Of a DNA stretch of 64,000 bases, positions 42,211 through 45,006 are shown one piece after another. How positions within the stretch are numbered: position 1 is the first letter of the stretch; each line of letters begins with the position of its first letter. A model generated the notes under the pieces. It was given only the letters and a program-made list of their open reading frames with translations. It ran no database searches and had not been told where the DNA came from. Source of the stretch: Aminobacterium sp. MB27-C1 (GTDB lineage Bacteria > Synergistota > Synergistia > Synergistales > Aminobacteriaceae); NCBI RefSeq assembly GCF_030908405.1, contig NZ_CP133089.1:186001-250000 (forward strand). The letters are read 5' to 3'. A program made the translations under genes and the position numbers.

Positions 42211-43011
42211 TTAGAAAGTTGGAACGACTCCGCCATTGTATTTTGAAAGAATAAATTCAGCGACTTTTTCCGAGCGTAGATATTTGATAAGAACCTCAAA
42301 TTTTTTATCATTTTTGTGATCTTCCCGTACAGCTACTATATTAACGTAAGGAGATTCGCTCCCCTCTATTAGAAGTGCGTCTTTTGTCGGATTGAGACCG
42401 GCCTCCAGAGCATAATTACCATTAATGATAGCTCCATCTACGTCAGGAAGAACTCGTGGAAGCTGTGCTGCCTCTATGGCTTTGAAACGAAGTTTCTTGC
42501 TGTTTTCAACAATGTCGAGTTCAGTAGCTTCTAAGCCTGCTTTATCAGAGAGCTTAATAAGCCCGTGTGACTGAAGAAGCAGCAATGCTCTCCCCCCGTT
42601 TACGCTGTCGCTGGGTATGGCGATAAGTGCTTTTTCTTTAAGATTTTCAATAGCTTTTATTTTTTCTGAATAGAGCCCTAAGGGTTCTACGTGTACTGCC
42701 CCAATTGAAGCCAGTTTAGTTCCATGAGAGGCATTAAAACTTTCGAGATAAGGTAGATGCTGATAAAAGTTAGCGTCGATCTCTCCGTCATCAAGAGCGA
42801 GGTTGGGCTTTACATAATCAGTAAATTCGATGATTTCAAGCTTTATCCCTTCTTTTGCAATATCATCTTTAATAACATTCAATATTTCCGCATGGGGAAG
42901 GGGTGTTGCTCCGATTTTAATAACTTCCTCTGCAGATACGGCTGTAGGTGCGAGAGTTACGCATAAAGAAAAGAGTACTGTTAAAAGAAGAATACCAATA
43001 TGTTTTTTCAC
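42211..43011 (-). CDS. metQ: methionine ABC transporter substrate-binding protein MetQ
   Basis: 266 residues, NlpA family: 'IKIGATPLPHAEILN', 'EIIEFTDYVKPNLALDDGEIDANFYQHLPYLESF' and 'NGNYALEAGLNP' are diagnostic. The signal peptide ends '...APTAVSAEE'. The single Cys in the signal region is in FSLC, not a proper lipobox, so it may be a soluble periplasmic form. GTG at 43011 chosen because GGAGG is 9 nt upstream; the upstream ATG overlaps that RBS. Confidence 0.92.
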   Translation of the reverse strand: MKKHIGILLLTVLFSLCVTLAPTAVSAEEVIKIGATPLPHAEILNVIKDDIAKEGIKLEIIEFTDYVKPNLALDDGEIDANFYQHLPYLESFNASHGTKLASIGAVHVEPLGLYSEKIKAIENLKEKALIAIPSDSVNGGRALLLLQSHGLIKLSDKAGLEATELDIVENSKKLRFKAIEAAQLPRVLPDVDGAIINGNYALEAGLNPTKDALLIEGSESPYVNIVAVREDHKNDKKFEVLIKYLRSEKVAEFILSKYNGGVVPTF

Positions 43012-43070
43012 GTTCCATTCCTCCATTTTGTATGTTGTTATAAAATTTTTTGCGCGCGCAGTTTGCTGAT

Positions 43071-43733
43071 CTAGCGATGACGGGCTACATGTTGGGCTAT
43101 TTTATTGCCTGCTCCCTGAATCACTTGAACCAGCAGAATAATTACTATGACAGCTGCCACAAGTACATCTGTTTGAAAGCGGTGGAATCCGTAACGAATG
43201 GCCAGATCGCCCAGCCCGCCGCCTCCAATAGCACCAGCCATGGCCGAATAGCCGATGATATTGATAATAGTAAGAGTTTCTCCCAGTATGAGAGAGGGAA
43301 GAGCTTCGGGTATCATAACTTTTAAAATAATATCCTTAGGATGAGTCCCCATAGAAACCGCTGCTTCTACAAGTCCTTTTTCAACTTCTTTTAGAGAGCT
43401 TTCCACAACTCGTCCAACAAAAGGCGCAGCTCCTATTGAAAGAGGAACAATAGATGCTGTTGTTCCAATGGTGGTTCCCACAATAATTCGAGAGAGTGGA
43501 AAGAGAACAATCATAAGAATAATGAATGGGAATGAACGACATATGTTTACGATGCTGTCGAGGGTGCGATAAATAGTTTCATTCTCTAATAATCCTCCTT
43601 TTTCGGTGACAACAAGGGCTACCCCTAAGGGGAAACCTAATAGAGTGGCAAAAAGAGTAGAGAAGAGAACCATGTAAATTGTTTCTAATGTTGGAGAAGC
43701 AATAAGGTGTGTAAGAGCTAAAATTTTATCCAT
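43071..43733 (-). CDS. metI: methionine ABC transporter permease MetI
   Basis: 220 residues, five hydrophobic segments; 'VMIPEALPSLILGETLTIINIIGYSAMAGAIGGGGLGDLAIRYG' region is the MetI signature. Start ATG 43733 overlaps the end of metN (ATGGATAA). Confidence 0.93.
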   Translation of the reverse strand: MDKILALTHLIASPTLETIYMVLFSTLFATLLGFPLGVALVVTEKGGLLENETIYRTLDSIVNICRSFPFIILMIVLFPLSRIIVGTTIGTTASIVPLSIGAAPFVGRVVESSLKEVEKGLVEAAVSMGTHPKDIILKVMIPEALPSLILGETLTIINIIGYSAMAGAIGGGGLGDLAIRYGFHRFQTDVLVAAVIVIILLVQVIQGAGNKIAQHVARHR

Positions 43734-44748
43734 TCCAAACCACATCCACTTCTACACTTTTAGATTGAATGAAAGAGAGTGCGTTGTTAATTTCAGAGGG
43801 GGTTCCTGAAAGCTGAACAGTAAGATTTCCAATTCTGCTGCTATGCAGATGATCAATCTCTCCCGATAAAATATTGATTTCAACGCCGCTTTGTTTTATG
43901 GCTTGAGAGATAACGGGGTGATTTGCCGTCTCTCCATTGAAAGAGAAGGTCAAGACCGGTTTCCCAGCTTCATGAGGAAGTTTTTCATGATCGTATGTTG
44001 TGCGCGGAAGGTGACTTAAAAATTCCCGGGCAGTTTTAGACTGCGGCTTCATAAAGACATCTTTTACCGTTCCTAATTCCACAACTTCTCCCTGTTCTAA
44101 TACGGCGACCCTATGGCAAATTTGACGAATGACGCCCATTTCGTGAGTAACGAGAACAATAGTTATGCCGAGCTTACGATTAATTTCATCAAGAAGGCTG
44201 AGTATGGATTGAGTCGTTTTGGGATCAAGAGCACTTGTTGCTTCATCGCAGAGTAAAACACTTGGATTGTTTGCTAATGCTCTGGCAATACCAACCCGTT
44301 GCTTTTGTCCCCCGCTGAGTTGCGATGGGTAGCTTTCTGCCTTGTCTGAAAGGTCAACAATGTCAAGCATTTCAGTTACTCTTTTAGAGATAGCATCAGA
44401 AGACCATTTTTCTATTTCAAGTGGAAATGCTACATTTTGAGAAACTGTACGTGATGTAAGCAAGTTGAAATGCTGAAAAATCATTCCTACATGACGTCGA
44501 AGTTTGCGGAGTTCAGGGGTTGAAAGACATGTAATATCAGTGCCTTCTATGAAGATATTTCCCGAACTGGGCTCTTCAAGTCTGTTAAGTGTGCGAAGTA
44601 ATGTTGATTTTCCTGCCCCACTTAAACCGATAATGCCGAATATTTCTCCTTTTTGAATAGTGAGAGTTATATTGCGTAAAGCTTCAAAATCTCCTCTTTC
44701 AGAGCTATACGTCTTGTGTAGATTTTGGATGTTAATCAATAGATTCAT
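43726..44748 (-). CDS. metN: methionine ABC transporter ATP-binding protein MetN
   Basis: 340 residues: ABC domain (Walker A 'GLSGAGKSTLLR', signature 'LSGGQKQRVGIARA', Walker B 'VLLCDEATSALDP') plus C-terminal NIL ligand-sensing domain (~260-340), which gives trans-inhibition by methionine in characterised MetN. ATG at 44748 is close to AGGAG; the TTG at 44739, 9 nt from it, is also possible. Longer frames run through the attenuator and are rejected. Confidence 0.93.
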   Translation of the reverse strand: MNLLINIQNLHKTYSSERGDFEALRNITLTIQKGEIFGIIGLSGAGKSTLLRTLNRLEEPSSGNIFIEGTDITCLSTPELRKLRRHVGMIFQHFNLLTSRTVSQNVAFPLEIEKWSSDAISKRVTEMLDIVDLSDKAESYPSQLSGGQKQRVGIARALANNPSVLLCDEATSALDPKTTQSILSLLDEINRKLGITIVLVTHEMGVIRQICHRVAVLEQGEVVELGTVKDVFMKPQSKTAREFLSHLPRTTYDHEKLPHEAGKPVLTFSFNGETANHPVISQAIKQSGVEINILSGEIDHLHSSRIGNLTVQLSGTPSEINNALSFIQSKSVEVDVVWNG

Positions 44749-44775: not shown

Positions 44776-44810
44776 AAAAAAAACCGGAGCCTTCAATAAG
44801 AAGGCCCCGG
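44776..44810 (-). terminator. attenuator terminator upstream of metNIQ
   Basis: On the minus strand CCGGGGCCTTC / GAAGGCTCCGG (one G-U pair) with a 5-nt loop is followed by TTTTTTTT, 35 nt after the leader-peptide stop and ~30 nt before metN. Confidence 0.9.
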
Positions 44811-44834
44811 CCTGAAAGTCAATCGACAGCAGCA

Positions 44835-44930
44835 CTAAACTGCGTCGACCACGTCAGGAGGGCCGCCGCACATGCACATCATCATGCTATTCAAAACTGT
44901 TGCCGCTGCTGCTCTATTTTTTGCGTGCAT
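44835..44930 (-). CDS. Met/Cys leader peptide for transcription attenuation of metNIQ
   Basis: 31-codon ORF with an excellent RBS (AAGGAGG, 7 nt before ATG) and its own promoter upstream. Residues 15-23 read SMMMCMCGG: four Met and two Cys in six codons. The stop is followed by an inverted repeat (TCGAC-GCAG / CTGC-TGTCGA) and then the terminator. The leader GGCCC (44860-44864) can pair with GGGCC in the terminator's 5' arm, giving a competing structure. This is the layout of ribosome-mediated attenuation: scarce charged tRNA-Met or tRNA-Cys would stall the ribosome and favour read-through. Regulation is inferred; the ORF, codons and hairpins are seen. Confidence 0.85.
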   Translation of the reverse strand: MHAKNRAAAATVLNSMMMCMCGGPPDVVDAV

Positions 44931-44977
44931 GCTGGTTCCTCCTTGCTCTTAATATGGTGGTGCGCAGATTGTGGCAT

Positions 44978-45006
44978 ATGATATCTAAAAAAAGGTGTAG
45001 TGTCAA
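44978..45006 (-). promoter_or_regulatory. promoter of met leader-metNIQ operon
   Basis: Minus strand: TTGACA (45001-45006), 17-bp spacer, TATCAT (44978-44983); ~50 nt before the leader-peptide ATG. Confidence 0.82.

Follow-up and report, generated by a model that had tools for sequence, protein, structure and literature searches.

A Met-codon leader peptide and a covarying antiterminator precede metNIQ in Aminobacterium and many other Synergistota and very likely form a transcription attenuator

The metNIQ operon of Aminobacterium sp. MB27-C1 is preceded by a short open reading frame (ORF) with a run of Met codons, followed by two alternative hairpins, one of which is an intrinsic terminator. 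Sequence and comparison establish the ORF, the conservation of its Met run, the mutually exclusive and covarying hairpins and their tie to methionine genes. In the absence of expression data, we consider it very likely that this element attenuates transcription by a ribosome-mediated mechanism, with charged elongator Met-tRNA reporting the supply of methionine.

Anatomy of the leader region

The window analyzed here is a stretch of 64,000 nucleotides (NZ_CP133089.1, positions 186,001 to 250,000), in which the following features were delineated:

44978..45006, minus strand: sigma-70-type promoter TTGACA-17-TATCAT, 11 of 12 consensus matches
44937..44944, minus strand: Shine-Dalgarno sequence AAGGAGGA of the leader ORF and candidate segment 1, complementary to CCTCCT of segment 2 and folded onto it
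44835..44930, minus strand: leader peptide ORF of 31 codons, MHAKNRAAAATVLNSMMMCMCGGPPDVVDAV and stop, with a strong Shine-Dalgarno sequence and including NSMMMCMCGGPP
44868..44885, minus strand: regulatory codons ATG ATG ATG TGC ATG TGC (Met Met Met Cys Met Cys), with an MMMC core kept phylum-wide
44854..44867, minus strand: segment 2, GGCGGCCCTCCTGA, the antiterminator 5′ strand, directly after the Met/Cys codons (folding)
44819..44849, minus strand: stop-codon hairpin of the leader, nested within the antiterminator (folding)
44803..44815, minus strand: segment 3, TCAGGCCGGGGCC, part of the antiterminator and also of the 5′ arm of the terminator (folding)
44776..44813, minus strand: intrinsic terminator with a 14-bp stem (44813-44781), a 5-nt loop and a run of eight T (terminator call and fold)
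43726..44748, minus strand: metN, methionine ABC transporter ATPase (TIGR02314, E 6.5e-117, short of the strict cut-off of that model; the NIL domain scores above its own cut-off)
43071..43745, minus strand: metI, methionine ABC transporter permease (NF008049, over cut-off)
42211..43026, minus strand: metQ, methionine-binding lipoprotein family (TIGR00363, E 1.5e-63)
46535-45153: class-III aminotransferase-like ORF, named by eye, on the other flank of the leader region, opposite metNIQ

The terminator ends about 30 nt upstream of the first ATG of metN (44748). The TTG at 44739 is the likelier start of metN, because GGAG directly abuts that ATG, which disagrees with Shine-Dalgarno spacing, and relatives begin at the TTG position. 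The Met density of the leader ORF, 4 Met in 6 codons, is beyond chance: when the 400 nt preceding metN were dinucleotide-shuffled 3000 times, no shuffle contained a Shine-Dalgarno-preceded short ORF with at least 3 Met in 6 codons. Two tests for membership in the trp/his class of attenuators are met here, namely a short ORF in the transcribed leader that has a Shine-Dalgarno sequence as well as start and stop codons, and an intrinsic terminator between the leader and the first gene.

Mutually exclusive hairpins and their covariation

Folding pairs GGCGGCCCUCCUGA (44867-44854) with UCAGGCCGGGGCC (44815-44803), enclosing the stop-codon hairpin, to give an antiterminator of -35.5 kcal/mol (z -4.6), and the terminator fold has -24.8 kcal/mol (z -5.8). 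The two are mutually exclusive because segment 3 is common to both. In addition, CCTCCT in segment 2 is complementary to the AGGAGG of the leader, from which a segment 1:2 pairing is predicted when the leader is not translated.

The antiterminator covaries across leaders. Covariation was measured by comparing native with swapped duplex energies rather than by counting alignment columns; column counts from MAFFT alignments were dropped because one-base bulges misregister segment 3. All 95 distinct leaders carry a hairpin and a T-run 3′ of the stop codon. The segment 2:3 duplex averaged -22.4 kcal/mol in the native combination versus -15.0 after swapping between dissimilar leaders, and the native pairing beat the swapped one in 80 of 88 leaders. 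The result persisted when each of 15 clusters with no mutual similarity contributed a single leader (Wilcoxon p = 0.0006), and in this set the native segment 2:3 total was not reached by any of 20,000 permutations. Co-changing arms are seen directly on comparing the metN leader of the window, in which GGCCC..CCTGA pairs with TCAGG..GGGCC, with a metY leader (L251), in which GGCAGAGCC..TCTGA pairs with TCAG..GGCTCTGC. Clear segment 2:3 pairing was not found in a minority of leaders (L149, L186, L228, L236 and L256).

Segment 2 starts at a median of 21 nt past the first ATG of the run, mostly at 18-24 nt. A ribosome covers about 12-15 nt ahead of its A site, and with this usual footprint and the observed distance, stalling on the Met run would leave segment 2 free. 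A further test of the trp/his class, an exclusive antiterminator drawn from the sequence just past the regulatory codons, is thus met.

An initial annotation, made from the sequence alone, had claimed the promoter, the 31-codon ORF with a strong ribosome-binding site and SMMMCMC, the stop hairpin, the GC-rich terminator with eight T before metN, and metNIQ downstream. All of these held, at the same positions and on the minus strand, with metN, metI and metQ identified by profile matches. Its claim that GGCCC of the leader can pair with the 5′ arm of the terminator held by both folding and covariation.

The Met run is conserved as codons

The Met codons are kept in all three species of the genus, and the N-terminus of the peptide differs. 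The two other species (G001 and G002) retain NSMMMCMCGGPP, SMMMCMCGGPP, the stop hairpin and the terminator; the N-termini vary in both sequence and length (MHAKNRAAAATVL, MQSNSRTIAIMVQ and MNIIMVIAM).

NIL-domain MetN is present in 121 of 188 Synergistota genomes. A Met-run leader was found at 47 of the 101 metN loci inspected in the phylum (a count that includes a few duplicate loci), lying before metN or, where metQ comes first, before metQ; about half of the metN loci are without one. The leaders take the forms MMMCMC, MMMCMY, MMMCSMMMC, MMMCDMMCC and MMMCMGMMMRMC, and there is a subtype M.MxMxRFxDAC. This constancy in the number of Met with a variable arrangement favors codons over an RNA motif. 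A pattern scan of the 188 genomes (GGAG, start codon and ATGATGATGTG) returned about 100 places in 57 genomes versus 3 for the reversed control. In a search that ignored the reading frame, 74 of the 78 distinct sites proved open and in frame with a start codon, indicating that the Met run is read as codons. The same leaders occur in records labeled 'Synergistota bacterium strain L-13' and 'Candidatus Caccocola'.

Other attenuators within the source organism were sought by pattern only, and its further pattern sites, among them a long coding ORF of 404 aa (L178), were set aside. No such Met-run peptide was detected among the phage records searched.

Genes behind the leaders

The Synergistota genes behind Met leaders are metN, metQ, metQ paralogs, metY and metX, which meets the trp/his-class test of a conserved codon run for the amino acid of the downstream genes (metN/metQ/metY/metX). 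The metY product is an O-acetylhomoserine sulfhydrylase matching over cut-off, as does that of metX. No cysteine biosynthesis gene was observed behind any leader found.

Three further kinds of gene lie under Met leaders, and this position makes them probable methionine or sulfur genes. One encodes a 420-residue protein in three genomes (L196-L198; L196:1706-2965 +) without any match in Pfam, NCBIfam or PDB, which, as inferred from its leader, is likely to be a methionine gene of unknown kind. Another is a YeiH/UPF0324-family membrane protein (L185:1678-3045 +, PF03601; L189:1-1359 -), which could be a sulfur or methionine transporter. The last is a family 3 amino-acid-binding protein (L192:1726-2514 +), whose nearest NCBIfam models describe Lys/Arg and cystine binding.

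Riboswitches instead of and ahead of the leader

At the leader site no Rfam family was matched at E up to 10, save for two chance matches. In particular, there was no covariance-model match to the SAM-I riboswitch (S-box, RF00162) over the leader even at a permissive E-value, and no T-box match within the window or, at a permissive E-value, over the leader. A THF riboswitch lies elsewhere in the window (RF01831, 15615-15712 +, 76.7 bits). A single SAM-I riboswitch was found in the source genome, before metK (G000:C1:2092232-2092335 -, L266), which implies that SAM synthesis and Met import are under different sensors.

In relatives, SAM-I stands at metN in place of the leader at L004 and L006, with weaker matches at L103, L117, L118, L133, L134, L135 and L140. 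Tandem arrangements also occur: seven loci (L008, L012, L014, L094, L097, L098 and L109) have a SAM-I riboswitch at a distance of 80-115 nt upstream from the start of a Met leader, which has a second terminator and is followed by metQ-metN. The terminator hairpin belonging to SAM-I itself is clear in six of the seven and weak in L109. These loci read as two attenuators in series, in which, by inference, expression would need low SAM and low Met-tRNA together.

Leaders outside the phylum

Met leaders were also found in Bacillota, before metN (L213, L221, L228 and L236), metQ-like genes (L224, L232, L234 and L239), metA (L217, over cut-off) and an oppA-like gene (L233). In the order to which L221 belongs, the pattern occurs in 6 of 248 genomes, and L221 itself is the only confirmed leader before metN; in the family of L233 it occurs in 5 of 251 genomes, two of them already known; the further sites in both groups are unchecked. 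So few matches point to a scattered occurrence in Bacillota and not to a general device. The scan of genomes with named hosts required MMMCM and excluded other Met-run arrangements.

Five Paenibacillaceae sites (L202, L204, L208, L212 and L226) were dropped as leaders because they are long Met-rich ORFs, and L207, L214 and L216 were dropped as chance matches. The Paenibacillaceae sites L202, L204, L205, L208, L212 and L226 encode proteins of 70-75 residues, mostly Met plus Cys and charged residues (MEKMAMEMMMMMCMDEM...), whose function is unknown; metal binding is one possibility.

Proposed mechanism and alternative explanations

The stalling of the ribosome, the direction of the response and Met-tRNA as the signal are inferred. 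With abundant Met-tRNA, a translating ribosome would reach the stop codon and cover segment 2, and the terminator would form before metN. With scarce Met-tRNA, the ribosome would stall on the ATG run and leave segment 2 exposed to pair with segment 3; the resulting antiterminator would block the terminator and allow metNIQ to be transcribed. Without any translation of the leader, segment 2 may instead pair with the leader Shine-Dalgarno sequence, favoring termination. This predicted segment 1:2 pairing means that total failure of initiation would shut the operon, so that the response must be to a moderate shortage of Met-tRNA. Such an initiation-dependent shut-off, if the predicted pairing is real, is awkward for an amino acid that doubles as the initiator.

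The initial annotation had inferred that metNIQ is controlled by stalling at Met codons; the phylum-wide leader family and the covarying antiterminator support this, with no experiment yet done. It had named two observations as refuting: relatives that keep the terminator without the Met codons, and a SAM-riboswitch covariance match over the same bases. Neither was made, since Met codons and terminator are kept together with varying N-terminal codons and no such match was obtained. Its suggestion that the Cys codons are also sensed is made plausible by Cys enrichment and remains unproven.

Met sensing alone does not account for the nearly constant Cys that follows the Met run. It is possible, and compatible with the main explanation, that the element is a joint attenuator for Met and Cys as sulfur amino acids, in which a stall at either type of codon would lead to antitermination. 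In favor of this, 40 of the 46 distinct metN/metQ leaders contain MMMC; beyond the MMMC core, 5.8% of leader residues are Cys (114/1969) versus 3/340 in the MetN of the window; Met and Cys alternate in Bacillota leaders (MCMCCYMCMPC, MMMCMCMC); the metL peptide of Streptomyces lividans ends in CMCRRMCAF (PMC8079986); and most of segment 2, which starts at about +21, would remain exposed if the ribosome stalled as the first Cys codon entered its A site. Against it, Tyr, Ser or a different residue frequently stands in place of the second Cys (MMMCMY, MMMCAS), the TGC after ATGATGATG may partly reflect a constraint at the RNA level (78 TGC, 5 TGT), and the leader search itself partly selected Cys after MMM. 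The lack of cysteine biosynthesis genes behind the leaders also counts against it, yet MetY can overlap cysteine synthase function.

The remaining alternatives fare worse than attenuation by slow decoding of the Met codons. Ligand-dependent arrest peptides exist, such as CGS1 of plants and TnaC, and the MMMC peptide might arrest the ribosome upon binding SAM or free methionine, as its short conserved residue motif, which is more than a count of Met, could suggest. We regard this as very improbable: the arrangement is diverse at a constant number of Met (MMMCSMMMC, MMMCDMMCC, MRMSMTRF, MMMCMGMMMRMC), the N-terminal residues that would occupy the exit tunnel are not conserved, and arrest by the end product would need the opposite coupling for antitermination. 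A ligand-binding riboswitch with a SAM or methionine aptamer and an incidental ORF can be virtually ruled out. Riboswitch control of the operon is known in the phylum, as in the relatives with SAM-I at metN (L004 and L006), but the codon evidence contradicts this reading: the variable N-terminus stays in frame, no conserved fold was seen besides the antiterminator, stop hairpin and terminator, nothing in Rfam other than the two chance matches was found at the site, and the S-box of the organism is located elsewhere, before metK. Sensing of methionine at initiation, through charged initiator tRNA and not the Met run, has been proposed for the streptococcal fthC uORF (PMC11109978), and the complementarity of the Shine-Dalgarno sequence to segment 2 does make initiation matter to the fold. 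This too is highly unlikely, since absence of initiation favors the terminator and the response would have the wrong sign, and this reading would leave unexplained why an internal Met run is conserved and keeps a fixed spacing from segment 2.

Relation to known systems

Bacterial methionine control is usually ascribed to MetJ, S-boxes, other SAM riboswitches and T-boxes. S-boxes (RF00162) and Met T-boxes likewise act by transcription attenuation on the same methionine genes but differ in that the RNA itself is the direct sensor of SAM or uncharged tRNA, with neither a ribosome nor a leader peptide involved. The Met leaders resemble the trp/his/thr/leu attenuators of Enterobacteria in having a translated leader, a codon run for the amino acid of the pathway, exclusive hairpins, a terminator just before the genes and a possible segment 1:2 pairing. 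They differ in the amino acid, which is Met (often with Cys), in the use of the leader's own Shine-Dalgarno sequence as segment 1, in the control of an importer and, in relatives, of Met biosynthesis, and in belonging to Synergistota.

Among leader peptides for sulfur amino acids, the metL leader of S. lividans, predicted to contain Met and to precede metNIQ (PMC8079986), was the only direct precedent for methionine in the open-access literature searched. It is leaderless, lacks a recognizable terminator and was described in one genome without comparative support; its likeness to the Synergistota leader in sequence is limited to Met/Cys alternation. Cys leader peptides have been predicted at cys operons of Mycobacterium in a study in which Met operons of Actinobacteria showed no conserved RNA structures (PMC1262725), and a cysS uORF has been described in Rhodobacterales (PMC8632094). 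These share sulfur amino acid codons within a conserved short upstream ORF but carry runs of Cys instead of Met, and the mycobacterial ones have no conserved terminators. His leader peptides of Firmicutes, at hisS/hisZ (PMC2965389) and his genes (PMC9413887), are similar in that an amino-acid leader peptide replaces another RNA regulator outside Proteobacteria; they differ in amino acid and phylum, and no tandem with a riboswitch was seen in the relevant sections of the two papers.

No species-conserved terminator-based Met attenuator, Met leader regulon or tandem with an S-box was found described in the open-access literature searched. The main text of a survey of intergenic regions in Thermovirga lienii (Synergistetes) is silent on methionine and metN (PMC6429828), although an unnamed listing in its supplement cannot be excluded. 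Within that literature, Met specificity and the scale of the regulon therefore appear new, as a methionine version of classical trp/his-type attenuation.

A Met leader regulon would add methionine to the amino acids sensed through ribosome stalling, with a problem peculiar to this amino acid: when it is short, initiation at the leader itself should be slowed as well. It also presents orthologous operons in which riboswitch and leader peptide substitute for each other or stand in series. A bolder reading, which we put forward only as a possibility, is that the methionine regulon of Synergistota is controlled by leaders reading both Met-tRNA and Cys-tRNA, in some genera stacked behind a SAM riboswitch. 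If true, transcription of metQ-metN would require that SAM and both of the charged sulfur-amino-acid tRNAs be low, a serial logic gate made of a riboswitch and a ribosome.
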